From positions 1-55,789 of the forward strand of contig CAKKRC010000026.1 of NCBI GenBank assembly GCA_919902495.1: 55,789 nucleotides of DNA, in the 5' to 3' direction. How positions within the stretch are numbered: position 1 is the first letter of the stretch; each line of letters begins with the position of its first letter. The notes under the pieces are model-generated. The model did no database searches, had not been told where the DNA came from, and saw only the letters and a program-made list of their open reading frames with translations. A program made the position numbers and the translations under genes. This document shows positions 16,915 to 36,216 of this stretch, in pieces. This stretch comes from Nitrospiria bacterium. Its GTDB lineage: Bacteria > Nitrospirota > UBA9217.

Positions 16915-18198
16915 TCAGTTGGCGGGAAGGGTCTTTTTCTTCTTCTTTTTCGGCGCAGCGGATTTTTTCCGGTCCCCCGTGGTCTGGGTGCGTTTCTGCG
17001 CGACTGACGATGTCGGTGACGGTCTCGTCGTGACCGCCGGGGAACTGGACGGCGGGACCGTGACGGCAGGTATGCCGGGCTGAACAGCCGTTGCTGTCGG
17101 GGTAGTGGCCGTATGCGGCAGCGTCACGAGTGGCGCGACCGGCAACGCAGGGGGCGGCTGGAGCGCGCTTCTCCCCTCCATTGGCTGGAAATAATAATAG
17201 TAGGCCCCGGCTCCCGCTCCCAGCAGGAGCAGCAGCGAACCCGCGACAGCAGTGTTCCTGAACCGCGCCGGACTCTTCGGCTTGCCGGTTATGACGATGG
17301 TCTCCTGCTCCGGGGCCGCCTCGAACAGCTTCCGGGACACGAGATAGTCGGCGATCCGGTTGAGCGAGGCGGCCTTGGTCGTTCTGCCCGCGAGCCGTCT
17401 TCCCAGCTTCTTCTCGACCTCCAGCATGGATCCGAAGCGCCTTTTGGGTTTCTTCCGGAGGCACTTCCTGATGATGCACTGAACGCGCCGGGGGATGTCC
17501 CGGTTGATGCGGCGAGGCGAGGGGTAGTCGTCCTTCATGATCTTCGCGGTCACGGCGCGGGTGTCCTCGTCGGTGAAGGGCTTTGCCCCAGTCAGCATCT
17601 CGTACAGCACGATGCCGAAGGAAAAGATGTCCGACCGGACATCGAGCGGCTGGCCGATGATCTGCTCCGGGGACATGTAGGCCGGCGTGCCGATGAGCGT
17701 GCCGGGCAGCGTCAGGGCATCGAGGTGCTTCGTGTGGGCGATGCCGAAGTCCATGAGCTTGACCTCGCCGTTGCGTTTGATCATGATGTTGCTGGGCTTG
17801 ATGTCGCGGTGGACCAGCCCCCGCATGTGGGCATAGTCCAGTGCGCTGCAGACCTGGATCGCGATCATGATCCCCACATCGACGGGCAGGGCGCCGCTCT
17901 TCTCGATGACCTCGGCAAGGTTGGTGCCGTCGACGTATTCCATCACGATGGCGTAGGTGGGCTTGTTCCAGTAGTCGTAGATATGGACGATGTTCTCATG
18001 CTGGAGCGAGGCGGCCATCCTGCTTTCGCGCTCGAAGCGCTTGACGATCTGTTCGTCGGCGTGGTAGGCCTTTTTCAGCTCCTTGATGGCCACCGGCCGG
18101 TCGAGTGACCTCTGGATCGCCTTGTGGACCGTGGCCATCCCGCCGGAGCCGATCTCTCCCAGGATCTGATATTCGTCTTTTATCTGTTGTCTTGGCAT
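16915..18198 (-). CDS. membrane Ser/Thr protein kinase (first of two in the island)
   Basis: 427 residues. The PknB/Hanks-type kinase domain covers about residues 9-270. It has GSGGMATVHKA as the Gly loop, Lys in VAIKEL, catalytic HRDIKPSNIM, MDFGIAH for DFG, and GTPAYMSPEQ as the P+1 loop with APE-like SPE. A single membrane helix follows (AGSLLLLLGAGAGAYYY). The exported tail is rich in Thr, Pro and Ser and ends in a Lys run (KKKKKK); it has no PASTA repeat. The ATG is chosen for AAGGATCCC upstream; a TTG five codons earlier is less likely. It is third in an FHA-PP2C-kinase row, separated from the phosphatase by a palindromic element. Confidence 0.93.
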   Translation of the reverse strand: MPRQQIKDEYQILGEIGSGGMATVHKAIQRSLDRPVAIKELKKAYHADEQIVKRFERESRMAASLQHENIVHIYDYWNKPTYAIVMEYVDGTNLAEVIEKSGALPVDVGIMIAIQVCSALDYAHMRGLVHRDIKPSNIMIKRNGEVKLMDFGIAHTKHLDALTLPGTLIGTPAYMSPEQIIGQPLDVRSDIFSFGIVLYEMLTGAKPFTDEDTRAVTAKIMKDDYPSPRRINRDIPRRVQCIIRKCLRKKPKRRFGSMLEVEKKLGRRLAGRTTKAASLNRIADYLVSRKLFEAAPEQETIVITGKPKSPARFRNTAVAGSLLLLLGAGAGAYYYYFQPMEGRSALQPPPALPVAPLVTLPHTATTPTATAVQPGIPAVTVPPSSSPAVTTRPSPTSSVAQKRTQTTGDRKKSAAPKKKKKKTLPAN

Positions 18199-18230
18199 GG
18201 GATCCTTGATCAAACCGGAACATCTTCTTT

Positions 18231-18346
18231 GTCACCACGGTCCCGCGAGTACGCGGGAACACGGTTAGAGGCTCGTCCTGAACAGCATAAACTTTTTGCC
18301 GTTATCTGTGTGTTCCGACGAAGTCGGAACCCGTGGTTAAAATGCG
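18231..18346. repeat. palindromic element with nested hairpins between PP2C and kinase genes
   Basis: The left half contains CCCGCG...CGCGGG and the right half TTCCGAC...GTCGGAA. The two halves align when one is inverted (ACCACGG...AACAC in both). The inner stems differ by compensating changes. Confidence 0.65.
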
Positions 18347-18362
18347 TTCAAGATCTGGGTTT

Positions 18363-19124
18363 CTAGACCTCCACCACCTGCACCACCACCGCGGTGATGT
18401 TGTCCACGCCGCCCTGCGCGTTCGCCGCGTCGATCAATTTCCGGGCCGCGTCGCGAGGAGCGGACCCCGCCAGGATCCTGCCGATCTCGCGGTCGTCCAC
18501 CATTTCCGTCAGTCCGTCTGAACACAAAAGGAACATGTCGCCGGGCTTCACGGGCTGCTCCATCAGGTCCGGGGCCGCCTCCCGGTCGGTGCCGAGGACC
18601 CGGGTGATCACATGGCGATAGGGGCTCGTCCGCGCCTGCGCTGCAGTGATGACGCCCGACCGCACCTGCTCGGCAACTACGGAATGGTCGTTCGTCAATT
18701 GCTCAAGCGTTCCGACGCGCAAGCGATAGGCGCGGCTGTCGCCGATGTGCGCAAGGAAGGCACGCTTCCGCGCCACGAGGAGCGCCGTCAGCGTAGTCCC
18801 CATGCCGGCCCGGGCAGGAGTCTTCGCGGCTTCCTCGAAGATGTTCCGGTTCGCCAGCACGACCGCATGGCGGAACGCGGCAAGCTCGGGAACATCTCCG
18901 GCGCGGGACCCCGTAGGCGGGGTCCGGTCTTTGTCGCCCAGCAGATCCGGCATTGCGCTAGCGATCGTATCCACGGCGATGCGGCTCGCGACCTCGCCGG
19001 CCTCGCTGCCCCCGACACCGTCGGCAACGGCGTAGAGCCGCAGTTCGTCGTTGACGAGGTAGGAGTCCTCGTTGTTGGCCCGCTTTTTCCCGGGGTCGGT
19101 CGCACCGAAGGAGAGGATCTTCAT
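18363..19124 (-). CDS. PP2C-type Ser/Thr protein phosphatase
   Basis: 253 residues, soluble. All PP2C metal motifs are present: RANNEDSYLV, VADGVGGSEAG, IGDSRAYRLR, LCSDGLTEMVDDREI and DNITAVVVQV. It should remove phosphate from Ser/Thr and oppose the neighbouring kinases. The start codon lies right after the FHA gene stop, so the two are co-translated. The kinase gene follows 165 bp downstream, giving the common pairing of kinase, PP2C and FHA reader. Confidence 0.94.
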   Translation of the reverse strand: MKILSFGATDPGKKRANNEDSYLVNDELRLYAVADGVGGSEAGEVASRIAVDTIASAMPDLLGDKDRTPPTGSRAGDVPELAAFRHAVVLANRNIFEEAAKTPARAGMGTTLTALLVARKRAFLAHIGDSRAYRLRVGTLEQLTNDHSVVAEQVRSGVITAAQARTSPYRHVITRVLGTDREAAPDLMEQPVKPGDMFLLCSDGLTEMVDDREIGRILAGSAPRDAARKLIDAANAQGGVDNITAVVVQVVEV

Positions 19125-19523
19125 TTAGGAGATCTCGTAGGTCCTGCCCCTGCCGCTGTCCTGGAGGATGAACTGGAGCGTGGTGTCGCCCACGCGGAAC
19201 TTGTCGCCATGGCGCAGCTTCCTTTGCCGGATGGACGCGCCGCGCATGTGCGTGCCGTTGGTGCTGTCCAGGTCCTTCAGGACGAAGGCGTTCTCATGGA
19301 ACACGATCACGGCGTGCTCCCGCGAGGCCAGGGGGTCCTTGATCGGTATCGCGGCGTCCCTGCTCCTGCCGATGATGGCGTAGGTCCTCTCGATCGGATA
19401 TTCCATGCCCGCGGCATAGCCCTGAAGGATCACGACGGAGGCCTGGTACCGGGCTGGGATCCCTTTCGTAGCTGGTGCCGTCTGGCGTATTTGTGTCCTG
19501 TCATCTCCTGCTGCGGTTGCCAT
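19125..19523 (-). CDS. stand-alone FHA-domain protein
   Basis: 132 residues. After a polar N-terminal ~28 residues comes one FHA domain that should bind phosphothreonine peptides. The conserved residues are visible: IIGRSRDAAIPI, SREHAVI and STNGTHMRG. The N-terminal segment contains several Thr residues that a kinase could modify. The ATG is chosen for the GGGAGGGA ribosome site. It is the first gene of the FHA-PP2C-kinase operon and is divergent from the FHA-sigma54 activator gene. Confidence 0.9.
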   Translation of the reverse strand: MATAAGDDRTQIRQTAPATKGIPARYQASVVILQGYAAGMEYPIERTYAIIGRSRDAAIPIKDPLASREHAVIVFHENAFVLKDLDSTNGTHMRGASIRQRKLRHGDKFRVGDTTLQFILQDSGRGRTYEIS

Positions 19524-19634
19524 GGTAACGTCCCTCCCTATTCCGCTCTCAGATGAGGACAATGATAGGATACTGCCGGGAAAAGGTCAAGGTCAAAGCA
19601 GGCTCCGCGCTGCTTCATAGCGGTCCGAACAGTA

Positions 19635-19669
19635 TTATCATTTCTCTGCTCTTGTGATACAATGATCCC
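19635..19669 (+). promoter_or_regulatory. candidate promoter giving a leaderless activator mRNA
   Basis: TTATCA, 17-bp spacer, then TACAAT with a TG one base upstream (extended -10). The expected start point coincides with the ATG of the next gene, which lacks a Shine-Dalgarno sequence. Confidence 0.42.
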
Positions 19670-21016
<1,347 letters not shown>

Positions 21017-21169: not shown

Positions 21170-21234
21170 GATGGACCGCATGTTGCTATTTCATTGTTTT
21201 GTTTCACTGAATGGATTTAATCTGGGACCCAACT

Positions 21235-21975
21235 ATGCTATATCGTAAACCCATAATGATATTTATTGTGACTGTAGCCTGGATGTTTTCAACTGGTTGC
21301 TCAATCTATAGAATTGTTGATTCCTATGCTGGAGTGGAGGTGCGGGTAGGCACCGAATATAAACAGGATGACGCCCTTGCGACTTTGCGGATAGAGGAAA
21401 ACGTTGTTTTTGAGTCGATAGGTCCACTATGTTTGCCTATAATTCCTTTGGTGAACTCTAACAAAATAACTGTCATCTCATTTCTCTTGCTGCGAAATGA
21501 ACACCCCTTTTCCATTAATGCAAAGCCATGCATTGTAACTGATGCGTCCAAGAAAATTTGCGCTAACATGCTAACCGCAAGCGCCAAGGCAACGTTTCCC
21601 CATGATTACATAAAATCGCATGAAGAACCTAAGGATCGGTTGTATGGCGTAATTGGAGCGATACTTAGTAGAGAAGCAAAAAAATACGGTGCCTTTGAAA
21701 GAGAAGATGAGCTGCTCGTAGACCCGTCTGAGGATAACTCTGTGAGTCGTATCGGCACAGAAGAACTATATAAGCATTATAACTATGGAGGAGATCCTCG
21801 ATGGGAAGACCTGCAAATCACTTTTACTTATACATTTACTTGTGCTGGTTCCTGTCCGAACAAATTCACCTTGGATGCAAAAGATTTTCTAACTATAGGT
21901 AATGAAATGTTTCTTGATGCTGAATATGATTATGTAAAAAAAGAACGTCAAAAAAGATTCTACTTCATGTTCTAA
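21235..21975 (+). CDS. AT-rich putative lipoprotein, unknown function
   Basis: 246 residues from ATG at MLYRKPIMIF; an ATG eight codons upstream is also possible. A short signal sequence ends in a lipobox-like FSTGC, so the mature protein would be lipid-anchored. No known domain is recognised. It contains a mid-region Cys (FTCAGSC) and a charged C-terminus (YVKKERQKRF). Base composition and codon use are clearly more AT-rich than every neighbour, suggesting recent gain by transfer. It sits alone between the activator and the second kinase, and may be unrelated to the island. Confidence 0.65.
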   Translation: MLYRKPIMIFIVTVAWMFSTGCSIYRIVDSYAGVEVRVGTEYKQDDALATLRIEENVVFESIGPLCLPIIPLVNSNKITVISFLLLRNEHPFSINAKPCIVTDASKKICANMLTASAKATFPHDYIKSHEEPKDRLYGVIGAILSREAKKYGAFEREDELLVDPSEDNSVSRIGTEELYKHYNYGGDPRWEDLQITFTYTFTCAGSCPNKFTLDAKDFLTIGNEMFLDAEYDYVKKERQKRFYFMF

Positions 21976-22121: not shown

Positions 22122-23309
22122 CTACCTCATCATCAACACCCCTGCGATAGCCGCCGCGATCAACATCGAATCGATCAGCAGCCACGGCCAGGGCCGTTTG
22201 AAGGAGAGCTGCGGCCGGAGGATGCCGGCGTCGGTGTGCACGGTGATCGTCGGTCGGTACTCCCTGCCCATCCTGAGCTTCGCAGCATCGACGCGGAACA
22301 GGAGCTGCGTGGCGGCATGACTGAAGGCCCGGGGTTTCGGATGGAGCCAGCGGTCGTGGGACGACAGGGTGCCGGTCGTTCCGTTGCACCCCAGGGCCAT
22401 CACGGGCATGCTGACCCAACTGGTCTTCCTCCACCACGGCAGGTTGATGGGCTTGCCTGCTACTGCATGGATGACGCTGTCCACGCCTTTCGGCAAGGTC
22501 TCGAGGTTCTGCAGCACGCTCTGGATCGCCTGCTTCATCGCGAGCGCGCTTTGATAGCGCCGCTGCGCATCCAGGTCCAGCGCCTTCTTGATGATCTTCG
22601 CCGTCCCCTTGTTCAGCTTTGGATTCAGGAGGAGCGGGTCCGGAAAGTCCAGCGGATGCGCCGACGGGTCCCTGCCAGTGAGGCAGTGATGAAGCGTGGC
22701 GCCGAGGGAGAAGATGTCGGAGCGCACGTCGGTCTGGCCGGTGCCATACTGCTCCGGTGCTGCATAACCCGGGGTTCCGTACACGTAGGTATCCTCCTGC
22801 TTATCCTCCTTGAAGAAACGGGCGATGCCGAAGTCGATGAGCTTCACGCGGCCGGTCCGGTCGATCATGATGTTCGACGGCTTCAGGTCCCGGAACACGA
22901 CGGGCCTCGGCTTCTGGACGCTCAGGAACTGCATTGCACGGCAGATCTGGAGGCCCCAGGAAAGGGCGAGCCGCTCGTCTATGACTTTTCCCCGCCTGGC
23001 ATTGAGCAATTGCTCCAGCGTCCTGCCCTGAACATATTCCATCACGATATAGTGCGACCCGCCGAAGGAGAAGTAATCGGTCACCTTCGGGAGGTTCGGG
23101 TGCGTGAGGCGGGAGAGGATGAGCGCCTCGGTCCGGAAGAGCGCGATGGATTCAGTTGCCTTGTTCGGCGCCTGGTTCGTTGTGCGCAGTTCCTTTACGG
23201 CGAGGACCTTGCCGCGGGCGGAGCGGTCCGCGACCTTGTACACAGAGCCCATGCCGCCCTGGCCGAGGGTGCCGGTGATCTCGTACCGATTCTTTAAGAG
23301 TTTGGTCAT
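22122..23309 (-). CDS. membrane-anchored Ser/Thr protein kinase (second in the island)
   Basis: 395 residues. The Hanks-type kinase domain covers about 1-270, with LGQGGMGSVYKV, Lys in LAVKEL, FRDLKPSNIM, IDFGIARF and GTPGYAAPEQ. The catalytic HRD reads FRD (His to Phe), a change seen in some active bacterial kinases. A ~100-residue linker follows, then a C-terminal hydrophobic segment (WPWLLIDSMLIAAAIAGVLMM) that should anchor it in the membrane almost at the end, with essentially no exported tail. It lies downstream of the FHA-vWA membrane protein gene on the same strand, with a 105-bp palindromic element between them. Confidence 0.92.
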   Translation of the reverse strand: MTKLLKNRYEITGTLGQGGMGSVYKVADRSARGKVLAVKELRTTNQAPNKATESIALFRTEALILSRLTHPNLPKVTDYFSFGGSHYIVMEYVQGRTLEQLLNARRGKVIDERLALSWGLQICRAMQFLSVQKPRPVVFRDLKPSNIMIDRTGRVKLIDFGIARFFKEDKQEDTYVYGTPGYAAPEQYGTGQTDVRSDIFSLGATLHHCLTGRDPSAHPLDFPDPLLLNPKLNKGTAKIIKKALDLDAQRRYQSALAMKQAIQSVLQNLETLPKGVDSVIHAVAGKPINLPWWRKTSWVSMPVMALGCNGTTGTLSSHDRWLHPKPRAFSHAATQLLFRVDAAKLRMGREYRPTITVHTDAGILRPQLSFKRPWPWLLIDSMLIAAAIAGVLMMR

Positions 23310-23456: not shown

Positions 23457-25700
23457 TTATGCTGTCTTGACGCCGCACTTCGCGCAGAACTTCGCGCCCG
23501 GCCGCAGGGCTTCGCCGCAGCCCCGGCAGGCCTGCATGGTCGGCTCGCTGAACACGATCGTGGCGTTGCCCACGTCGATGACGTCGCCGTCCCGGAGCGT
23601 CTGCCTGCCCGTCACCTTCCTCTTGTTCACGAAGGTTCCCGTTGCCGCGCCCTTGTCCTCGATCACATACCGGCCGTTCTCCTGGACCACCTCGGCGTGC
23701 TGAGGCGCGATGGTCCGGTCCCTTGTCAGGCCGATGGTGCTGCCCGCTGCCGCGCCGATGGTCACGGTCTTGCCGATATCGATGCCCTTCGTCGTGCCCT
23801 TACCGCGCACGAGGCTCAGGTGGCCGGTCGCGTATTGGCGCTCCATCGTCCTGAGGGATATGGCCATGAGACCCAGAAGGCTCAACAGGGACATTGCGAA
23901 GGTCGCATACGGCGGCCTCATTTTTCCAGAGCCGAAGAGGGACGAGTCAGGCTGGAAGTAGGAGCGCATGGCTGTCGGACCCGCGCTCAGGGTGAGGAAC
24001 ACGTTCCTGAGATAATCGGCCCGGTCCTGCGTATGGTACGTAACGACGTATTCATTACGGATCCTCTTGCTGACGGCCTCGTATATCTCGGCAAGGCCCG
24101 ACGCCGCCGGCGTGAAGAAATAGGAGCCGCCGGTCTCCACTGCGATGCGTTCGAGCCGTGCAGTCCTGACGTCAGCGCCCAGGCCGATGACGGTGACGGA
24201 TATATAATCCTTGACCGCTTCGGCGATGGCCTGATGGATGTCGAGGCTTCCGCGGTTGGCGATCCCGTCGGTCAGTACGACAACGGCCTTCCGGCCGGGA
24301 ACGTCTTTGAGCGCTCCGGCACCCTGGGCAATGGCGTCGTAGAGCGCCGTATGCCCTTCAGGTTCGATGGCCTGCACAGCATTGGTCAGCCTGGCCTGGT
24401 CGTTGGTCAACGGTTCGAGCAGCGCGACTGTGTCGCTGAAAGCGATGAAGGCCGCCCGGTCACCAGGCTCCATGAGCGCGATGAACCGGAGCACCGATTC
24501 CTTCGCGCGTTCTATCTTCTCCCCGGACATGGATCCGCTCCGGTCGAGGACGATGGCGAGGCTGAGCGGTTCGCGGTCGCCGCCGGTTCCCGTCGTCGCC
24601 ATGCTGTCGATGGACATTTGCTGGCCGTTCTCCAATAGTACCGCGTTCTCCTTTGTCAGGCCCCGGACCGGCTTACCGTTCCCGTCGAGCACGGAGACAT
24701 AGGCCTTGACGACGGGGAAGCTGCCCAGGTCGAACTGGGTGATCTGCGCTGAGGTGGGTTCACCGGCAAACACAGGAGCAGCCAGGCCGGCCAGCAGGAC
24801 GACGGCCGCGATCGCCGCCGCCTTTTTTACGGCCGAGAACATGAGCAGGATACTGCCGACGCGGATGACATCGCCGTCAGCAAGCTTGCTGTTCCGGGTG
24901 AGGACCTGATTCACGTAGACCGCCTTTCCCTGTTCGTCGGTCTCGATCAGGTAGTGACCGTTGTTCCGCTTGATGCCTGCGTGCTGCAGGGCCACGCCTT
25001 CGGCGCCTGAGAGGCAGACATCGGAGCGGTCGTCCCGTCCGATCACGTTCATCTCTTTAAGCAGCGGGAACTCCCTGTTCAGGTGTCTTCCTTTGATCAC
25101 CCTGACCTTGGCGGACACGAACGCCTCCTCGACGAGACTGATCAACGCCCCGATCGAAAACCCCAGCAGGGCGAGCCCTGCCAGGACCGGCCAGAAGCTG
25201 GCTGTCGCCAGGACGGAGTAGAGGCCGCCGCCGAGAAGCCCGCCGAGCGATCCGCCCGCAAGACCGTACCACGCGCGCTCGCGGGACCTGATCATGAGGC
25301 CGCCGCTGATGCCGATCGCCGCGCCCAGGATGGCCCAGCCCAAACTGACGGCCAGGATGATCCCGAGCGATGCAGCAAATCCGCTCTGTTCTGCCGCGTA
25401 CCTGCCCAGGATGGAGAAGATCGTATTGCCGAGGCCCGCGCCCAAAGCGCCGCCCAGCAGACCGGCAGCGGCGCCGAAGGCCGCGCGTCTTATTGCAGTT
25501 CCGAACTGCCTGCCCGCAAGCGCCTCGTGGCTCCAGATGAAACCGCCGAGGAACACGCCCGTAACGGCGCCGAGCAGGATCTCCGTGCGCAGTCCGGCAG
25601 CCGCAGAGGCGGAAAGGGCAAGCACGAAGGCCCAGGCCGTGGAGCCGCCTAGCGCCCCCGCAGCGCCGTACAAGAGAGTCTTATGAGTGGGTCTGGTCAT
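23457..25700 (-). CDS. multi-spanning FHA-TM-vWA-TM-FHA-zinc ribbon protein
   Basis: 747 residues with an unusual order. Residues 8-190 are Gly/Ala-rich helices, probably six or more membrane spans. FHA 1 (about 198-290, IGRDDRSDVCL) is degenerate. A helix at 292-312 crosses the membrane. A vWA domain (about 378-548) has a full MIDAS start (Asp386-Arg-Ser-Gly-Ser) and LTDGIANRG. Another helix lies at 597-617. FHA 2 (about 626-718) contains APQHAEV and TGTFVN. A zinc ribbon has Cys725, 728, 739 and 742. The vWA domain would be outside and both FHA domains inside. It could carry an external signal to phosphothreonine readers. The start has AGGAGG. Confidence 0.9.
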   Translation of the reverse strand: MTRPTHKTLLYGAAGALGGSTAWAFVLALSASAAAGLRTEILLGAVTGVFLGGFIWSHEALAGRQFGTAIRRAAFGAAAGLLGGALGAGLGNTIFSILGRYAAEQSGFAASLGIILAVSLGWAILGAAIGISGGLMIRSRERAWYGLAGGSLGGLLGGGLYSVLATASFWPVLAGLALLGFSIGALISLVEEAFVSAKVRVIKGRHLNREFPLLKEMNVIGRDDRSDVCLSGAEGVALQHAGIKRNNGHYLIETDEQGKAVYVNQVLTRNSKLADGDVIRVGSILLMFSAVKKAAAIAAVVLLAGLAAPVFAGEPTSAQITQFDLGSFPVVKAYVSVLDGNGKPVRGLTKENAVLLENGQQMSIDSMATTGTGGDREPLSLAIVLDRSGSMSGEKIERAKESVLRFIALMEPGDRAAFIAFSDTVALLEPLTNDQARLTNAVQAIEPEGHTALYDAIAQGAGALKDVPGRKAVVVLTDGIANRGSLDIHQAIAEAVKDYISVTVIGLGADVRTARLERIAVETGGSYFFTPAASGLAEIYEAVSKRIRNEYVVTYHTQDRADYLRNVFLTLSAGPTAMRSYFQPDSSLFGSGKMRPPYATFAMSLLSLLGLMAISLRTMERQYATGHLSLVRGKGTTKGIDIGKTVTIGAAAGSTIGLTRDRTIAPQHAEVVQENGRYVIEDKGAATGTFVNKRKVTGRQTLRDGDVIDVGNATIVFSEPTMQACRGCGEALRPGAKFCAKCGVKTA

Positions 25701-25722: not shown

Positions 25723-25848
25723 TCAATGAGAATCAGACAACAGGTAGTAGACCGTGGTCAGGATCCACGCGATCGCTACCGCGATGCCGTACACCACCGT
25801 TCTCAATGTCCCTGGTCTGGTCCCAGTCCTATAGGAAAGCCTGATCAT
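25723..25848 (-). CDS. 41-residue single-pass membrane microprotein
   Basis: A short frame with an ideal ribosome site (AAGGAGG, 5 bases before ATG). It encodes a basic N-terminus (MIRLSYRTGTRPGTLR) and one membrane helix (VVYGIAVAIAWILTTVYYLL), ending DSH. It fits exactly between the FHA-zinc ribbon gene and the FHA-vWA membrane protein gene on the same strand, with 22 bp to the latter. The positive-inside rule puts the N-terminus in the cytoplasm. No homologue is recognised. The strong ribosome site and clean helix argue for a real gene, perhaps a regulator of the adjacent membrane protein. Confidence 0.65.
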   Translation of the reverse strand: MIRLSYRTGTRPGTLRTVVYGIAVAIAWILTTVYYLLSDSH

Positions 25849-25865
25849 CGGAACCTCCTTAAACT

Positions 25866-25979
25866 ATTGCGGATTGATGATTTCGGATTGCGGATTAACA
25901 AAGCAATGAGCAAAGCTGATCACGGAAAAAGGCATGAGCTTACGCTGGATTCCGCAATCCGCAATCCGCATTCCGCAAT
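25866..25979. repeat. palindromic 7-bp array (ATTGCGG type)
   Basis: Five 7-bp units (ATTGCGG, ATTGATG, ATTTCGG, ATTGCGG, ATTAACA) on the left. Four inverted units (CCGCAAT, twice, CCGCATT, CCGCAAT) on the right, with about 50 bp between. Confidence 0.85.
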
Positions 25980-25983
25980 TGAA

Positions 25984-26421
25984 TTACGCTGCCTTGAGCG
26001 AGAAGGTCAGCTTGCCGAACCGGATCTCGTCGCCGGGTTTTATCGCCTGCGGCGTGTTCGGCAGGATCTTCTTGCGGTTGATATAGGTCCCGTTCGTGGA
26101 GCCCATGTCCTCGACAGTATAATCCGCGCCGGAGCGGTGAATGACCGCGTGCTTTCGCGAAACGCCCTTTTCCATCCCGCCGAAGCCCGTCAGATCGAGA
26201 TCGGGGAAGACCTCGCTGATGGGATCCTCCCTGCCGATGACCACTTCATCCTTCGCGGGGATCTCCAGCGTGCTGCCGTCGACAGACGCGAGCACCAGCC
26301 GCTCTGTCGGACTTCCCTTCACGGTCTCCTGCAGTTCGTTCTTCGCTTCAAGCTGTGCGCCGCACTCTTCGCAGAAGAGCGCTCCTTCGATGTTCTCCAT
26401 CTGGCATTGTGTGCATTTCAT
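25984..26421 (-). CDS. zinc ribbon-FHA protein
   Basis: 145 residues. An N-terminal zinc ribbon (CTQCQMENIEGALFCEECG; CxxC at both ends) is followed by a linker and a complete FHA domain (about 60-143) with VIGREDPISEV, SRKHAVI and STNGTYINR. It should be a cytoplasmic phosphothreonine reader. The linker has several Thr/Ser residues (ETVKGSPTER), resembling GarA-type FHA proteins that are themselves kinase targets; this comparison is inference. GGAGGAAAT precedes the ATG; upstream in-frame codons are 7-bp repeat DNA. It lies between the vWA gene and the microprotein. Confidence 0.92.
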   Translation of the reverse strand: MKCTQCQMENIEGALFCEECGAQLEAKNELQETVKGSPTERLVLASVDGSTLEIPAKDEVVIGREDPISEVFPDLDLTGFGGMEKGVSRKHAVIHRSGADYTVEDMGSTNGTYINRKKILPNTPQAIKPGDEIRFGKLTFSLKAA

Positions 26422-26441
26422 GGCAATTTCCTCCTTTTTAC

Positions 26442-26483
26442 GATTGCGGATTTCGGATTGCGGATTGCGGATTGTCGAACTCC
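26442..26483. repeat. one-armed 7-bp array (GATTGCG type)
   Basis: Six consecutive units: GATTGCG, GATTTCG, GATTGCG, GATTGCG, GATTGTC, GAACTCC. It lies between the vWA and zinc ribbon-FHA genes. Confidence 0.8.
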
Positions 26484-26521
26484 GCGTATACCGCAAGCCG
26501 CGCTTCGCTGGCTGATTTAAT

Positions 26522-27787
26522 TTACTTGCCAATAGACGTTGTCATCACCTGCGTAAGCTTGCGCGTGCCGTACTCGAGCTTCTTGGTCCCCGCTGCGGTG
26601 AACGCCCCGGTCTTTTTGAGCGACGCTATCTCTCGCTCCACTGCATCGGCAAGTTCGTCCTCGCCCAGGTCCAGCAGGACCGTGGCGGCGGCCTGAAACT
26701 GCCGCGTTGCCGCGGCGATGTTGCCGGTACGAGCCTCGGTGAGCGCCCGGGTCTGGAACTTGAATGCCGTCACCTTTTCCACGAGATTCATCACTTCGGC
26801 GTTCACTTTTGCAGCGTCCGCCGCGTTTGCGGCGAAGGCGACGTTCAGGTCGGCCTTGACGCTCTGGCCGGTGAGCCCTTGCGATGGGACGTCATACCCG
26901 ATCTCCACCTGGCCGAGCCGGAAGGGTCCCGCTTTCTGCGCAGGCACCCGTGCCTCGATCAGCACCTTCTGTCCTGTCTTGGCATCGAGCGAACCGAGGT
27001 CCGCCTGTATCGTGCCGCCATTGATCGTCCGGCTGCTGACATCGGCGATCATCGGGCTGGTGGTGTATACCTTGACGGGCCGTACGCCCGCGCTCATGCG
27101 TCCGGTGATCGTCAGGTTCGTCGCGGCGATCGCCTGCATGCCGTCCACCTCCTGCCGGAAGGCGTCGAGGATGGCGATGGGATTCTGGATCCAGTGCGAG
27201 TTGCCGTGCGACCGCTCTGCGATCTGGAGCAGGAGCTTTTCGTTCCACTCGTTGCCGATCCCGATGCTCGTGATCGCAACGCCCTGCTTTCCCGCCTCGT
27301 CGGCAAGCCTGAGGCAGGCGTCCTCGTCGTCCCACGTCTGTCCGTCGGTCAGAAGCAGTACCCGGCTCACGCGGTCCTGGCCGAAGCCTTTCTTTGCTTC
27401 CGCGAGTCCTGCGGAGAGGCCGTCGGATATCTGGGTCCCGCCGCGGGTGATCACCTGGCTGAGCTTGGTCTTGATCTCGTCCCGGTTCTTCGCGGGCTGA
27501 CTCGATACCAGCGTCTCGACCTGGTCATCGAAGATCGTGACGGAGACAAGGTCCTCATCGCCCAGACGGTCCACCACATAGCCTACGGCTTCCTTGAGAT
27601 TGTCCATCTTTTCGCCGTCCATGGAACCGCTCCGGTCGAGCACCAGCGCGATGTTCGATGGCATGGTCCCGATGCCCAAGCTCGTACCGGCCTTGATGTC
27701 CACCAGGGCGTAGACAGCCTGCTCGCCGCCGGTTACGGGCAGCGTGTCCTTGCTCATGATGCAGCGGATGTTCAGTTCGTTCTTCAT
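26522..27787 (-). CDS. cytoplasmic vWA-domain protein
   Basis: 421 residues without signal or membrane segment. An N-terminal beta region is followed by a vWA domain (about 44-225) with intact MIDAS DRSGSMDG (Asp51, Ser53, Ser55) and LLTDGQTWDD. The C-terminal half resembles the beta and helical parts of Ca-activated-channel-like or inter-alpha-trypsin-type vWA proteins (VEIGYDVPSQGLTGQSVKAD; TAFKFQTRALTEARTGN). Such soluble vWA proteins act as metal-dependent scaffolds, and in TerY-type systems they pair with PP2C and kinase genes. GGAGGGAAT gives the start. It lies between the second PP2C gene and the zinc ribbon-FHA gene. Confidence 0.9.
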   Translation of the reverse strand: MKNELNIRCIMSKDTLPVTGGEQAVYALVDIKAGTSLGIGTMPSNIALVLDRSGSMDGEKMDNLKEAVGYVVDRLGDEDLVSVTIFDDQVETLVSSQPAKNRDEIKTKLSQVITRGGTQISDGLSAGLAEAKKGFGQDRVSRVLLLTDGQTWDDEDACLRLADEAGKQGVAITSIGIGNEWNEKLLLQIAERSHGNSHWIQNPIAILDAFRQEVDGMQAIAATNLTITGRMSAGVRPVKVYTTSPMIADVSSRTINGGTIQADLGSLDAKTGQKVLIEARVPAQKAGPFRLGQVEIGYDVPSQGLTGQSVKADLNVAFAANAADAAKVNAEVMNLVEKVTAFKFQTRALTEARTGNIAAATRQFQAAATVLLDLGEDELADAVEREIASLKKTGAFTAAGTKKLEYGTRKLTQVMTTSIGK

Positions 27788-27944: not shown

Positions 27945-28850
27945 TCAATTGACTTTGACCACGATCGCCGTGATGTTGTCCTTACCGCCGTTCGCCTCAG
28001 CCCTCTGTACGAGCCGTGCGCAGATCAGGTCGGTATGCTTTTCACCAGCGCAGATCTTGCGGATCTCCTCGTCGTCAACCTCGCCCCAGAGCCCGTCCGT
28101 ACAGAGCAGCAGCGTGCCGCCTCTCGCAACAGGCACCGTACAGATGTTCACCTTGACCGTTTCATCGTTCCCGATGGTGCGGTACAGGAGGTTGGCGCGG
28201 GGGTGGTTCCGTGCATCTTCCTTCGTTAACTGCCCTTTGGCAACGAGCTTCGCGACCACGGAGTGGTCCTCGGTGATCTGGGTGATGGAGGCGTTCTCGA
28301 TCCAGTAGACCCTGCTGTCTCCCACGCTGCCGATGAATGCCGTGCCATCCGACATGAGCGCGACACTGAGCGTCGTGCCCATGTTCGAGCCTGTGCGTGA
28401 AGCTTCTCGATTAACTTCGGTATTCGCCCGCTGCACGGCGCGTTCGACGAGTTCGAGAGGGTCCGTGCCCCGTTTCTTTGCCTCCCGCACTTCGCTGCAT
28501 ACGGCCTGCACTGCGATGGCGCTCGCGATCTCTCCGGCATCATGGCCGCCCATGCCGTCGGCCACGACGAAGAGGGTCTTGTCCCCGAGATCGAGGAATG
28601 TGAAATTGTCCTCGTTATGGTCTCTCACCAGGCCGGTGTCCGTGATGCCGTGCCACGAGAGCGCGAGCGGCGCGGGCATCTGCGCTTCTTCAGGCTCGGG
28701 CCGCAGCCGCACCGTGTGGACCGGCTGAAGCACCCTGGTCAGGGACCGCGCTGATGCCGGATCGATACCCACCCGGGAGAGGGTCATCGTTTCCCAGGCG
28801 ACATCCATACCAATAATCCTTTTCAGCAAGTTCCAGAGGCTGCTCATCAT
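27945..28850 (-). CDS. PP2C-type phosphatase with N-terminal extension
   Basis: 301 residues. The first ~55 residues (MMSSLWNLLKRIIGMDV...) are not part of the catalytic fold and may be a targeting or docking segment. The PP2C domain follows with VRDHNEDNF, VADGMGGHDAGE, GSVGDSRVYWI, LCTDGLWGEVDDEEI and KDNITAIVVKV, so all metal ligands are present. The start has AGGAG in the right place; a longer in-frame extension upstream lacks conservation. It is the first gene of the row PP2C, vWA, zinc ribbon-FHA, microprotein, FHA-vWA, kinase. Confidence 0.93.
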   Translation of the reverse strand: MMSSLWNLLKRIIGMDVAWETMTLSRVGIDPASARSLTRVLQPVHTVRLRPEPEEAQMPAPLALSWHGITDTGLVRDHNEDNFTFLDLGDKTLFVVADGMGGHDAGEIASAIAVQAVCSEVREAKKRGTDPLELVERAVQRANTEVNREASRTGSNMGTTLSVALMSDGTAFIGSVGDSRVYWIENASITQITEDHSVVAKLVAKGQLTKEDARNHPRANLLYRTIGNDETVKVNICTVPVARGGTLLLCTDGLWGEVDDEEIRKICAGEKHTDLICARLVQRAEANGGKDNITAIVVKVN

Positions 28851-29125
28851 GACCGGCTCCTGTGAGGATTGACATTCGTTTCGTTCTGCTGTGTATGTTG
28901 CATTGAGCGTGCCAGATCGGAACGGGTCGACGGGAAAGGGGAAAGAGCAGGTATTACAGAATGTTTCCGCCGAGCCACGGAGGGACGAGAACGGGATCGT
29001 GCGAGGGATCCTCTGATTTTCGAAGGAGGGGTATTCGATTATCGAACATCCAGTTCTTGTCAAGAGAAATGGTTCTTTCCCCCTTTCACCTCATTAAGGT
29101 TTGCTATCAACTGCGGCTCTTGCCG

Positions 29126-31016: not shown

Positions 31017-32255
31017 ATGGCACTGGTAAAGCCTCATGGCAAAAAGAAGAAGCTTATGCCTCTTCTTCTCGAAGGATCGGCCCTTCAGAAAGAGCTCAAG
31101 AAGGCCAAGACCCTGAAGCAGCTCAAGATCTCCTCGCGCGAGACCGCTGATCTCGTGATGATGGGCATCGGCGCGTTCACGCCGCTCACGGGTTTCATGA
31201 CCAAGAAGGACTGGAAGGGCGTTTGCGACAAGTTCAAGATGGCTGACGGAACGTTCTGGCCCGTCCCGGTCACGCTCTCGGCAACGCCGGAGTTCGCCGC
31301 ATCGCTCAAGAAGAACGAAGAGATCACCCTGGTGGATGAAGAGTCAGGCGAGATCATGGCCACCATGAAGGTGGCCGAGAAGTACGCCATGACGAAGGCC
31401 GACAAGGAGCACGAGTGTACGAAGATCTTCCGCACTAATGATGTCGCCGGTCACCCGGGCGTGCAGAAGGTCATGGGCCAGCCCGACGTCAACCTGGCCG
31501 GTCCGGTGAAGGTCCTGTCCGAGGCGCACTTCCCCCAGACCTTCAAGGGCATCTATATGAAGCCGGTGGAGACCCGCAAGATATTCGAGGCCAAGGGCTG
31601 GAGCAAGATCGCGGCGTTCCAGACCCGGAACCCCATGCACCGCTCCCATGAGTACCTTGCCAAGATCGCCATCGAGACCATGGACGGCGTTCTGATCCAC
31701 CAGATCCTGGGCAAGCTCAAAGAGGGCGATATCCCGGCCGATGTGCGCGCCGACGCCATCAACACCCTCATGGACAAGTACTTTGTGAAGGACTCCGCCG
31801 TTCAGTGCGGCTATCCCATGGAAATGCGCTACGCCGGTCCCCGGGAAGCCCTCCTCCACGCGCTCTTCCGGCAGAACTTCGGCTGCAGCCACCTGATCGT
31901 CGGCCGCGACCACGCGGGCGTGGGCGACTACTACGGCCCCTTCGACGCGCAGAAGATCTTCGACGAGATCCCGGCGGGCGCGCTCGAGACCCAGCCGCTC
32001 AAGATCGACCACACCTTCTATTGCTTCAAGTGCGACGGCATGGCCTCCATGCGGACCTGCCCCCACGGCAAGGATGACAGGCTCATGCTTTCCGGCACCA
32101 AGCTGCGGAAGATGCTGTCCGAGGGCGAGAACGTTCCCGACCACTTCAGCCGCCCCGAAGTGCTCGAGATCCTCAAAAAGTACTATGCCGGCCTCACCGA
32201 GAAGGTGGAGATCAAGCTGCACAGCCACGCGGAAGGCACGCATACCAATAAGTAA
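31017..32255 (+). CDS. sat: dissimilatory ATP sulfurylase (sulfate adenylyltransferase)
   Basis: 412 residues. It converts sulfate and ATP to APS and PPi, the first step of sulfate reduction (or the last step of oxidation in reverse). The active-site motifs are [11 protein letters not shown] (202-212) and [16 protein letters not shown] (297-312). A Cys-rich segment (CFKCDG...RTCPHG) matches the zinc site of dissimilatory Sat proteins, followed by [10 protein letters not shown]. There is no fused APS kinase, as expected for the dissimilatory type. AAGGAGG precedes the ATG. It begins the sat-aprBA row. Confidence 0.97.
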
Positions 32256-32316
32256 CCAGGTCGCATCGACTGCGGAAGCAGTTAACTAAATTCCACAGAT
32301 AGGAGGAAGAGATAAC

Positions 32317-32748
32317 ATGCCGAGTTACGTAATTACCGAGAAGTGTGACGGCTGTAAGGCGCAGGATAAGACTGCTTGCCAGTACATCTGTCCGAACGAC
32401 CTCATGATCCTGAACAGGGACACCATGAAGGCGACCAACCAGGAGCCTGAGCAGTGCTGGGAGTGCTACAACTGCGTGAAGATCTGCCCGCAGCAGGCTA
32501 TGGAGGTCAGGGGCTACCAGGATTTCTGCCCCATGGGGGCGAACGTGATCCCGTTGAGGGGCACGGACTCCATTATGTGGACCGTGAAGTTCCGGAACGG
32601 GATCCTGAAGCGTTTCAAGTTCCCCATCCGGACAACCGCCGAAGGCTCGGTCGATCCCTACAAGGGCAAGCCGGAAGCGGATTTCGCCAACATCAAAAAA
32701 ACGGGCTTTTTCACCACGACGAAGCCGATGCCCGTCATCAAGAAATAA
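32317..32748 (+). CDS. aprB: APS reductase beta subunit
   Basis: 143 residues. This iron-sulfur subunit passes electrons to the FAD of AprA. Two [4Fe-4S] sites are visible: Cys10/13/21/25 with one spacing longer than usual, and Cys47/50/53/57 in CWECYNCVKICPQQA. The C-terminal arm that wraps around AprA is present. It is in the normal aprB-aprA order, 14 bp before aprA, with GGAGGAAGAG upstream. Confidence 0.97.
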   Translation: MPSYVITEKCDGCKAQDKTACQYICPNDLMILNRDTMKATNQEPEQCWECYNCVKICPQQAMEVRGYQDFCPMGANVIPLRGTDSIMWTVKFRNGILKRFKFPIRTTAEGSVDPYKGKPEADFANIKKTGFFTTTKPMPVIKK

Positions 32749-32762
32749 GGAGGATATGATAA

Positions 32763-34781
32763 ATGGAAAAGGAAACCTGTACATTTTCGTTCTGCGCGAA
32801 GCCGGCAGTAGAAGAGGTTGAGACCGATCTCCTCCTCATCGGCGGCGGTATGGCGTGCTGTGGTTCGGCGTTCGAAGCTGCGCGCTGGGCGAACCCCAAG
32901 AAGATCAAGATCACCATGGTGGACAAGGCCGCGACCGACCGGTCCGGCGCCGTCGCCATGGGTCTGTCGGCCATCAACACCTACTGCGGTGAAAATGATC
33001 CGGCGGACTATGTAAAGTACGTACGCAACGACCTCATGGGCATCACGCGCGAGGACCTGGTTTATGACCTGGGCCGCCACGTTGATGATTCCGTGCATCT
33101 CTTCGAAGAGTGGGGCCTCCCGATCTGGAAGATGGGCGACGACGGCTTCTCCCTCGACGGTTTCCAGGCAAAGGAAGCAGGCAAGACCATGCTGAAGGAC
33201 GGCGGTAAGCCGGTCCGTTCCGGTAAGTGGCAGATCATGATCAACGGCGAGTCCTACAAGGTCATCGTGGCGGAAGCCGCGAAGAAGGCCCTGGAGACCA
33301 ACCGTGCCGCGACCGGCGTGAAGACCAACCACTATGAGCGCGTGTTCATCGTGAAGCTGTATCATGACGCCAAGGACCCGAAGCGCGTGGCGGCAGCGGC
33401 CGGTTTCAGCGTCCGCGAGAACAAGATCTATATCTTCAAGGCAAAGGTCATGGTACTGGCAGCCGGCGGCGCAGTGAACGTGTTCCGCCCCCGGTCTACC
33501 CAGGAAGGCCAGGGCCGCGCCTGGTACCCGGTATGGAACTCCGGCTCCGGTTACGCCCTCGGCATGCAGGCCGGCGCGGAGCTGACCATGATGGAGAACC
33601 GCTTCGTGCCCGCCCGCTTCAAGGACGGCTACGGACCGGTGGGCGCCTGGTTCCTGTTCTTCAAGGCCAAGGCGACCAACAGCCTGGGCGAGGATTATTG
33701 CCTGAATCCGGAATATCTGGCGGAAGCCAAGGCGAAGTACGGCAAGTACGTTGACGCCCTCGGCACGGCCATCCGGAACCACCTGATGATGAAGGACATG
33801 AAGGCGGGCAAGGGCCCGATCCTCATGAACACGCACCATGCCATGGATGCGATCAACAAGTCCTTCACCGAGAAGCTCGGCGAGAAGGAAGGCAAGAAGA
33901 AGGTGAAGCACCTCGAGGCGGAGGCGTGGGAAGACTTCCTCGATATGTGCATCGGCCAGGCCGGTCTCTGGGCCTCCAAGAACATCGAGCCGGACAAGAC
34001 CCCGTCCGAGATCATGCCGACCGAGCCCTATCTCCTCGGTTCGCATGCCGGCTGCGCCGGATTCTGGTGCTGCGGTCCCGAAGACCTCGGCGCGCCGGAA
34101 GAGTGGAACAAGAAATGGCCGGGCGGCAGCTACAACCGCATGTCGACCGTGCCGGGCCTCTTTATGTGCGGCGATATCTGCGGCGCGTCGGGCCACAAGT
34201 TCTCCTCGGGCTCGCATGCCGAGGGCCGCATCGCGGCCAAGAGCGCGATCGCGTTCCTGCTCGACAACCCGAACTATACGCCGACCATCAAGGAAACGGC
34301 GGACCAGATCTCGGCCGAGCTCTATCTGCCGTTCGAGGTGTTCGAGAAGTACAAGACCTTCACTACGGACACGGCGATCAACCCGAACTACATCAAGCCG
34401 AAGATGCTCCAGACCCGTCTGCAGAAGATCGCCGACGAGTACTTTGGCGGCATCGGCACCTGGTACATGACCTCGAAGACCATGCTCGACGAAGGCCTCA
34501 GGCAGCTCGACATGCTCAAGGAAGACACGAGCAAGATGGCGGCCGGCAACCTGCACGAGCTGATGCGCTGCTGGGAGAACTATCACCGTATCCTCTCCGT
34601 TGAGGCCCATGCGCGCCACATCCTGTTCCGGGAAGAGTCGCGGTATCCCGGCTACTACTATCGCGGCGACTTCGACAAGATCGACGACGACAACTGGAAG
34701 TGCTTCGTGAACTCCATCTACGATCAGGACAAGAACACCTGGATCGTCAAGAAGGTTCCCTACGCACAGCTGGTTCCGTAG
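32763..34781 (+). CDS. aprA: APS reductase alpha subunit (flavoprotein)
   Basis: 672 residues. It reduces APS to sulfite and AMP with FAD (reversible in sulfur oxidisers). The FAD-binding N-terminus has LLIGGGMACCGSAFEAARW. Further family signatures are RSGAVAMGLSAINTYCG, NRFVPARFKDGYGPVGAW, GSHAGCAGFWCCGPEDLGAP, and GLFMCGDICGASGHKFSSGSHAEGR split over the active site. The length equals known AprA proteins. A terminator follows, so aprBA mRNA probably ends before qmoA. Confidence 0.97.
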   Translation: MEKETCTFSFCAKPAVEEVETDLLLIGGGMACCGSAFEAARWANPKKIKITMVDKAATDRSGAVAMGLSAINTYCGENDPADYVKYVRNDLMGITREDLVYDLGRHVDDSVHLFEEWGLPIWKMGDDGFSLDGFQAKEAGKTMLKDGGKPVRSGKWQIMINGESYKVIVAEAAKKALETNRAATGVKTNHYERVFIVKLYHDAKDPKRVAAAAGFSVRENKIYIFKAKVMVLAAGGAVNVFRPRSTQEGQGRAWYPVWNSGSGYALGMQAGAELTMMENRFVPARFKDGYGPVGAWFLFFKAKATNSLGEDYCLNPEYLAEAKAKYGKYVDALGTAIRNHLMMKDMKAGKGPILMNTHHAMDAINKSFTEKLGEKEGKKKVKHLEAEAWEDFLDMCIGQAGLWASKNIEPDKTPSEIMPTEPYLLGSHAGCAGFWCCGPEDLGAPEEWNKKWPGGSYNRMSTVPGLFMCGDICGASGHKFSSGSHAEGRIAAKSAIAFLLDNPNYTPTIKETADQISAELYLPFEVFEKYKTFTTDTAINPNYIKPKMLQTRLQKIADEYFGGIGTWYMTSKTMLDEGLRQLDMLKEDTSKMAAGNLHELMRCWENYHRILSVEAHARHILFREESRYPGYYYRGDFDKIDDDNWKCFVNSIYDQDKNTWIVKKVPYAQLVP

Positions 34782-34793
34782 TTTAGCGTCATG

Positions 34794-34828
34794 TCCGGGG
34801 AAGGCGCAAGCCTTCCCCGGAATTTATT
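34794..34828 (+). terminator. intrinsic terminator after aprA
   Basis: TCCGGGGAAGGC and GCCTTCCCCGGA form a perfect 12-bp stem with a GCAA loop, followed by ATTTATT. Confidence 0.88.
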
Positions 34829-34927
34829 GCAAATTGCAAATTGCAAATTGAAAATTGCAGAATTGCGGAAAGCGAGCGATGCTCGCTTCTTTTTTAAGTT
34901 TCAAACTTGCAATTTCCAATTTACAAT
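34826..34927. repeat. palindromic 7-bp array (ATTGCAA type) enclosing a terminator
   Basis: Left arm: ATTGCAA three times, ATTGAAA, ATTGCAG. Right arm, inverted: TTGCAAT, TTCCAAT, TTACAAT. A terminator hairpin sits between the arms. Confidence 0.87.
34870..34895 (+). terminator. second intrinsic terminator between aprA and qmoA
   Basis: AAGCGAGC and GCTCGCTT form an 8-bp stem with a GAT loop, followed by CTTTTTT. It lies in the loop of the larger 7-bp palindrome. Confidence 0.8.
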
Positions 34928-34965
34928 TTTTTCGGTCTTAGAGCTTTGAAGGAGGATTACGTACC

Positions 34966-36216
34966 ATGGCGGAAAATAAGGTGTTGGTTGTCGGCGGAGG
35001 CTTTAGCGGCCTTACGGCAGCAGTGGAAGCCGCGGAAGCGGGGTCGGATGTCATCCTTGTCGAAAAGAACCCCTACCTCGGTGGACGGGTGACGCAGCTG
35101 AACAAGTACTTCTGGAAAATGTGCCCCCCGAACTGCGGACTCGAGATCCAGTACAAACGGATCAAGAACAACGGCCAGGTCAAGATCTATACGATGGCTG
35201 AAGTGGAGAAGATCTCCGGCAGCGAAGGCAACTTCGAGGTGACCATCAAGACCCAGCCCCGCTTCGTGAACGAAAAGTGCACGGGCTGCAACAAGTGCAC
35301 CGAGGCTTGCCCGGAAGAGCGCTCCAACGATTTCGACTTCGGGATGAGCAAGACCAAGGCGGCCTATTTGCCGCATAACCAGGCCTTTCCTCTTCAGTAT
35401 GTGATCGACGCCAAAGCGTGCAAGGGCTCGTCCTGCGCCAAGTGCGTAGCGGCCTGCGCTTATGACGCCATCAAGCTCGACATGAAGCCGGAGACGGTGA
35501 CGGTGAAGGTCGGGGCGGTGGTCATGGCGACCGGCTGGAACCCCTATGACGCGACCAAGATGGACAATCTCGGGTTCGGCGCGGTCCCGAATGTGATCAC
35601 CAACATGATGATGGAGCGTATCGCCGCTCCGAACGGCCCCACGGGAGGCAAGATCGTGCGGCCCTCCGACGGCAAAGAGGTCAAGAACGTCGCCTTCGTG
35701 CAGTGCGCGGGTTCGCGCGACGAGAACCACCTGGCCCATTGCTCGTATATCTGCTGTCTGGCATCGCTGAAGCAGGCATCCTATGTCAGGGAACTCTATC
35801 CCGACGCCAAGGTAAAGATCTTCTATATCGACATCCGCACCCCCGGACTCTATGAGAACCGGTTCTACACCAAGATCAAGGAAGACAAGAACGTGTCCTT
35901 CCTCAAGGGCAAGGTCGCCAGGGTCGAGCAGGCGCCGAACGGCGACGTGAAGGTCACCGCCGAGGACATTCACGGCGGCAGCAAGATCACCGAGACCTTC
36001 GATATGGTCGTGCTTGCCACCGGCATGCAGCCCACCGCGGCATCGCTGAAGAACGCCGGTGTTGCAATGACCGATGACGGGTTCGTGGACCAGGCGGCGC
36101 TCCCGAAGGGCATCTACGCGACCGGCACGCTCAAGACGCCCGTTGACGTGGCACGGTCGGCGCAGGATGCAACGGGTGTGGTCATGAAGAGCATCCAGAG
36201 TTTGAGGAGGAAATAA
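34966..36216 (+). CDS. qmoA: quinone-interacting oxidoreductase subunit QmoA
   Basis: 416 residues, HdrA-like flavoprotein of the QmoABC complex. The N-terminal FAD site is VVGGGFSGLTAAVEAAEAG. Cysteines for iron-sulfur binding are in CTGCNKCTEACPE and CAKCVAACAYDA. FVQCAGSRDENHLAHCSYIC is typical of HdrA-type subunits. The complex links the menaquinone pool to AprBA. AAGGAGG precedes the start. It is two bases ahead of the qmoB start. Confidence 0.95.
   Translation: MAENKVLVVGGGFSGLTAAVEAAEAGSDVILVEKNPYLGGRVTQLNKYFWKMCPPNCGLEIQYKRIKNNGQVKIYTMAEVEKISGSEGNFEVTIKTQPRFVNEKCTGCNKCTEACPEERSNDFDFGMSKTKAAYLPHNQAFPLQYVIDAKACKGSSCAKCVAACAYDAIKLDMKPETVTVKVGAVVMATGWNPYDATKMDNLGFGAVPNVITNMMMERIAAPNGPTGGKIVRPSDGKEVKNVAFVQCAGSRDENHLAHCSYICCLASLKQASYVRELYPDAKVKIFYIDIRTPGLYENRFYTKIKEDKNVSFLKGKVARVEQAPNGDVKVTAEDIHGGSKITETFDMVVLATGMQPTAASLKNAGVAMTDDGFVDQAALPKGIYATGTLKTPVDVARSAQDATGVVMKSIQSLRRK

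Follow-up and report, generated by a model that had tools for sequence, protein, structure and literature searches.

The window analysed here, i. e. the whole stretch of 55,789 nucleotides on one contig of a Nitrospiria bacterium, contains an operon that codes for a PP2C phosphatase, a soluble vWA protein, a zinc-ribbon-FHA protein, a large membrane protein (in the following called the receptor) and a Ser/Thr protein kinase (Table 1). This five-gene order was kept in all relatives in which the contig was long enough, and a C-terminal TM segment was present in the kinase of every complete orthologue. Among 296 sampled Nitrospirota genomes the full-length receptor occurred in 15, the zinc-ribbon-FHA protein in 12 and the soluble vWA protein in 13, the gaps falling at contig ends. 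The receptor gene is read from the minus strand; in the plus direction the same region is interrupted by stops. It is preceded by a GGAGG ribosome site, and its third codon positions have a GC content of 0.81, compared with 0.60 for the window.

Table 1. Features of the receptor operon and its surroundings. Positions are those of the window except in the last line, which gives locus L124; residue numbers refer to the receptor.
Feature	Position	Strand	Remark
FHA - sigma-54 AAA+ - Fis HTH activator	19670..21016	+	candidate operon regulator
Ser/Thr protein kinase, C-terminal TM anchor	22122..23309	-	conserved downstream of receptor
FHA-vWA-FHA-zinc ribbon membrane protein (receptor), 747 aa	23457..25700	-	
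CxxC...CxxC zinc ribbon, residues 722-745	23466..23537	-	
FHA2, degenerate, residues 626-718	23547..23825	-	AF2; homologue alignment
TM helix returning to cytoplasm, residues 597-617	23850..23912	-	
Exported block (beta-sandwich + vWA), residues 313-597	23910..24764	-	invariant MIDAS; no Cys
Signal-peptide-like segment, residues 292-312	24765..24827	-	K293 and A312 near-invariant
FHA1, residues 197-290	24831..25112	-	Pfam; alignment; AF2
Six Gly/Ala-rich TM helices, residues 3-194	25119..25694	-	AF2 helices; invariant Gly columns
Zinc-ribbon-FHA protein, ArnA-like	25984..26421	-	intact pThr pocket
Soluble vWA protein, ArnB-like	26522..27787	-	beta-sandwich, vWA, C-terminal helices
PP2C phosphatase (Stp1/IreP type)	27945..28853	-	operon's first gene
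Sigma-54 -24/-12 promoter TGGCACGCTCAATGCA	28899..28914	-	61 bp upstream of PP2C start
Second dyad, candidate enhancer site 2	29012..29024		22 bp from site 1
Upstream dyad TTCGATAATCGAA, candidate enhancer site 1	29034..29046		
Free-standing homologue of 6TM part	L124:6058-6984		

The first-pass annotation had read the receptor as FHA - membrane - vWA - membrane - FHA - zinc ribbon, and this anatomy is supported by Pfam, by AlphaFold2 (AF2) and by the homologues. Pfam found two FHA stretches and a VWA domain at residues 381-540 (5.9e-20); the zinc ribbon stayed below its threshold. Residues 330-561 of the vWA block scored above the curated cut-off of TIGR03436 (116.1 vs 81.25 bits). The exported block thus passes the cut-off of these acidobacterial VWA proteins, but in the receptor the vWA domain is set between TM helices and FHA domains. 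The AF2 model (mean pLDDT 77.5) was built on a 16-row alignment, and its pTM of 0.54 does not allow the packing of the domains to be read. It contains six N-terminal helices (residues 3-32, 37-62, 66-106, 110-137, 140-164 and 169-194), FHA1 (197-290), the vWA domain (379-548) within a beta-sandwich, a helix at 597-617 and FHA2 (626-718). Residues 294-315 were modelled with low confidence. Foldseek with the full receptor recovered vWA folds only. Gly and Ala make up 38% of residues 1-190 and 22% of the remainder, in line with the Gly/Ala-rich membrane helices predicted in the first pass. The MIDAS, likewise described there as intact, is invariant in the homologues at all five residues (D386, S388, S390, T451, D478), and all four ribbon Cys are conserved. 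Since full-length orthologues exist in which the MIDAS and the ribbon Cys are conserved, the domain order is not due to chance. Between the receptor gene and that of the zinc-ribbon-FHA protein there is an ORF of 41 amino acids (25723-25848) that has a good ribosome site and is predicted to form a single TM helix.

The vWA domain, an integrin-like metal-binding domain, had been proposed to lie outside the membrane, with both FHA domains and the ribbon inside, and this topology is well supported by the computational evidence. At both flanking helices the charge bias (positive-inside) puts the FHA sides in the cytoplasm. Residues 313-597 contain no Cys in any of the 15 homologues, whereas Cys is present elsewhere in the chain. 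The junction in front of the block resembles a signal peptide, and in relatives without the N-terminal half an ordinary signal peptide stands at the N-terminus in front of the same vWA block. A cytoplasmic vWA domain, with hydrophobic segments that do not cross the membrane, would fit the low confidence of the model at residues 294-315; against the charge bias, the Cys-free block and the true signal peptides of the unfused relatives we regard it as highly improbable.

Bacterial FHA domains that bind pThr share the signature GR / SxxH / NG (PMC1262709). The receptor does not carry it. The Ser and Asn pocket contacts were missing from both FHA1 and FHA2 in every homologue, the Ser being replaced by A, G or L in FHA1 and by A, D or E in FHA2. 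The GR of FHA1 (R222) is kept in all homologues except the distant L063, and that of FHA2 in every aligned copy but this one. In this copy FHA2 has GAAAGS (23739-23756) in place of the GRDERN of its relatives, i. e. the Arg was lost here only. With both pockets broken throughout the family, the earlier idea that the receptor reads phosphothreonine is not supported for this chain. FHA1 had correctly been called degenerate; HAE and TGTFVN, considered as retained features of FHA2, are present as letters but are not the phosphate-contacting residues, and in this copy FHA1 is no more degenerate than FHA2. Because Ser and Asn are lost in both domains while the pocket of the neighbouring zinc-ribbon-FHA protein is intact, it is more likely that the receptor FHA domains serve as docking modules than as pThr readers.

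Within the family, receptor orthologues are 56-69% identical; those of a second Nitrospirota family and of two MAGs labelled Deltaproteobacteria reach about 40%. The unusual domain order suspected at the outset was indeed rare: it was found in the 15 Nitrospirota genomes given above and in 'Deltaproteobacteria' MAGs, and two further matches among the 296 genomes consisted of the vWA block alone. When one genome per species was scanned, at least 16 loci (L048-L063) matched beyond the vWA block, nearly all from Nitrospirota MAGs; this number is a lower bound, as the scan relied on two short motifs and therefore undercounts. L063 is a distant homologue with 28% identity. Our literature searches found no account of this FHA-vWA-FHA-ribbon family. 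Receptor and operon were absent from two close relatives, G001 and G010, and the operon is thus dispensable. Three apparent splits of the receptor gene were set aside: those in G015 and G024 stem from contig breaks, and the fission in G040, which could have been taken as proof of two subunits, goes along with a deletion and a frame change in a MAG that is 79% complete.

The two soluble vWA and FHA proteins of the operon resemble ArnA and ArnB, which form a motility switch in the archaeon Sulfolobus acidocaldarius, in their parts and their arrangement, as judged from sequence and predicted fold. The best PDB matches of the zinc-ribbon-FHA protein were ArnA structures (5a8i/8s05_C), with both ribbon and FHA domain aligned, and it has the ArnA-type order of an N-terminal zinc finger followed by the FHA domain. 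Its pocket is intact (GR/SRxH/TN; G63, R64, S88, H91, T109 and N110 invariant or nearly so). By sequence the soluble vWA protein matches ArnB, and it has the ArnB-type build of a beta-sandwich, a vWA domain with MIDAS and a C-terminal helical domain. In the fold comparison (AF2 and Foldseek) it matched 8s05 with TM-scores of 0.67-0.75; the top match was a bacterial vWA protein (4fx5, 0.79). Its C-terminal tail GTKKLEYGTRKLT is nearly invariant and contains two Thr with Leu at +3, a known preference of FHA ligands. The archaeal system (PDB 8S05, 5A8I; PMC12852372, PMC6509490) has in common with the operon a zinc-ribbon-FHA protein with an intact FHA pocket, a protein composed of beta-sandwich, vWA and helical tail, Ser/Thr kinases and a phosphatase. 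In Sulfolobus, once ArnC has phosphorylated Thr in the C-terminal domain of ArnB, the FHA domain of ArnA binds tightly (PMC12852372). In contrast to the archaeal module, the present one is bacterial, is encoded in a single operon, uses a PP2C instead of a PP2A phosphatase and has two components absent from the archaeal one, the membrane-spanning receptor and the tail-anchored kinase. The operon PP2C of the second family is fused to a kinase-like N-terminal part into which a zinc ribbon is inserted (L039 1503-3071, L057 915-2555). Repeats of the GGATTGCGGATT type lie on either side of the ArnA-like gene (25863-25979 and 26426-26488) and occur in both orientations; they look like intergenic repeats and were set aside as regulatory elements.

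A sigma-54 promoter of the operon is supported by conservation and position. TGGCAY-N5-WTGCA was found immediately upstream of the operon's first gene in 10 of 11 genomes, L036 being the one without it; in four of them the site fits the sigma-54 consensus perfectly, and in the rest it deviates at one or two positions. Two dyads TTCGAWAATCGAA, 20-22 bp apart, follow about 110-190 bp further upstream in most genomes and are weaker in the second family. Such paired dyads occurred at this promoter only in the 200 kb scanned. Site and dyads together are arranged as in a sigma-54 promoter that has enhancer sites. Other sigma-54-like sites in the window (two mismatches allowed) were no more frequent than chance, 14 vs 21.6 expected, and therefore the promoter assignment rests on conservation and position. 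The FHA-AAA+-Fis activator, which has no receiver domain, is encoded close to the operon here and in four other genomes, and is thus the natural candidate for the regulator. Its link to the dyads is circumstantial, as the FHA-sigma-54 gene lies nearby in some genomes only. Elsewhere in the same genome (L155 4236-4464, G000:C68), a perfect dyad and, 154 bp from it, a sigma-54 site with one mismatch precede the gene of a putative membrane protein of 111 amino acids, possibly a second target of the same regulator.

The signal-peptide-like segment in front of the exported block shows an uneven conservation. K293 and A312 were each kept in 13 of 14 copies, and the columns between them have diverged. 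A312 takes position -1 of an AxA-type site, which in this copy reads PVFA before and GE after the putative cut. Position -3 is always small or aliphatic (A/V/S/L), -2 is mostly bulky, and this SPase-like site ranks top in the alignment. A possible interpretation is that the gene encodes a polyprotein: SPase I would cut the internal signal peptide to give a 6TM-FHA1 protein and a vWA-TM-FHA2-ribbon protein that pair. The conserved site argues for this, and so does G156, in which the halves are separate, adjacent genes. Yet the AxA motif could be a relic of the fusion retained as a TM helix, the hydrophobic core could span the membrane by itself, and AxA is absent from the homologue in L040. We consider processing a serious possibility, albeit one with somewhat more against it than for it. 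It is compatible with the receptor acting as a single envelope-spanning unit as discussed below. The family offers a conserved instance of what appears to be a signal peptide within a polytopic protein, together with a natural split relative, which makes internal processing directly testable.

In G156 the two halves are overlapping genes for a lipobox-vWA-TM-RING protein and a 6TM-FHA protein, the vWA gene coming first, opposite to the order in the fusion. The 6TM-FHA protein aligned with receptor residues 7-290 at an HHalign probability of 99.6%. Both genes lie among E1, E2 and JAB genes, i. e. in a ubiquitin-like conjugation locus, which suggests that parts of the receptor are reused in another signaling context. 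G311 has adjacent genes for TM-FHA, SP-vWA-TM-FHA, PP2C and FHA-kinase-FHA proteins. The SP-vWA-TM-FHA proteins of G311, G300 and G178 (L121, L123, L125) share with the receptor the exported block, the returning TM helix and a cytoplasmic FHA domain, and have FHA, PP2C and/or kinase genes alongside. Unlike the receptor they have a true N-terminal signal peptide and lack the 6TM-FHA1 half and the zinc ribbon, and the FHA pocket of L121 is canonical. Judged by these gene arrangements, the split and unfused relatives support a functional partnership of both halves.

Genes for vWA, FHA, kinase and PP2C proteins often cluster in bacteria and archaea. Here such a set comprises a membrane-spanning input component, and beside it two proteins that can be recognised as ArnA/ArnB-like; both its promoter and its candidate regulator lend themselves to testing. 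In the best-supported reading, to which we give an even chance, the receptor is an envelope-spanning receptor or scaffold of a bacterial Ser/Thr phospho-signaling module, in which it would control the kinase and thereby the ArnAB-like switch. Ligand, cleavage, phosphosites and output of this module are inferred. The MIDAS of the vWA domain would bind a ligand in the envelope or on a surface, and the TM region would relay its state to both degenerate FHA domains and to the ribbon. These could dock the kinase, and perhaps the phosphatase, instead of reading pThr. The kinase would then phosphorylate Thr of the ArnB-like protein, most likely in the conserved tail; the ArnA-like FHA domain may read this mark as ArnA reads phospho-ArnB, and the PP2C may erase it. 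A sigma-54 activator, for which the neighbouring FHA-AAA+ protein is a plausible candidate, would turn on expression of the operon. A more specific version, in which a selected internal signal peptide is cut and one gene thus yields a two-chain receptor of 6TM-FHA and exported-vWA/TM/FHA/ribbon subunits, which form a metal-dependent sensor gating a bacterial phospho-switch of the ArnAB type under its own sigma-54 circuit, appears rather unlikely as a whole.

Besides the polyprotein, a purely structural role is a live alternative. The degenerate membrane FHA domains could hold an envelope complex as in the T3SS ring protein SctD/YscD, the vWA domain capturing an envelope partner constitutively and kinase and phosphatase regulating assembly. 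SctD/YscD (Yop-YscD_cpl) also has a non-canonical cytoplasmic FHA domain beside TM helices; Yop-YscD_cpl is the best Pfam model of FHA1, and both FHA pockets are broken across the family. However, the SctD and TagH models scored far below their cut-offs (17 vs 86 bits for the SctD/YscD equivalog), no secretion-system genes, and thus no T3SS cluster, were found among the operon neighbours read, and signaling enzymes dominate the operon. This role is doubtful, though it deserves to be kept in mind beside the receptor reading.

The triad of vWA, PP2C and kinase also resembles stress or anti-phage modules of the TerY-P / MoxR-vWA type, in which these genes stand together (PMC7159879), and the ArnB-like protein matches vWA-TerF weakly (E 0.0019, below cut-off). 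But PADLOC gave no match for the receptor, the ArnA-like or the ArnB-like protein, neither vWA protein is of the TerY type, the operon contains no MoxR ATPase or Ter genes, and one of its vWA domains is exported. A module of this kind is very unlikely here. The PADLOC matches of kinases (PD-T4-6, MADS) reflect general kinase similarity and were dismissed as a link to defence.

A second phospho-signaling set adjoins the operon (16915-21016) and consists of a kinase, a PP2C, an FHA protein and the divergent FHA-sigma-54 activator; the arrangement is the same in L040 and partly so in L034 and L035. Between the two clusters lies a gene for a putative lipoprotein (21211-21975) that has no match in Pfam, NCBIfam or PADLOC. 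On the other side, at 31017-36216, the window contains sat, AprBA-like and Qmo-like genes, i. e. genes of dissimilatory sulfur metabolism.
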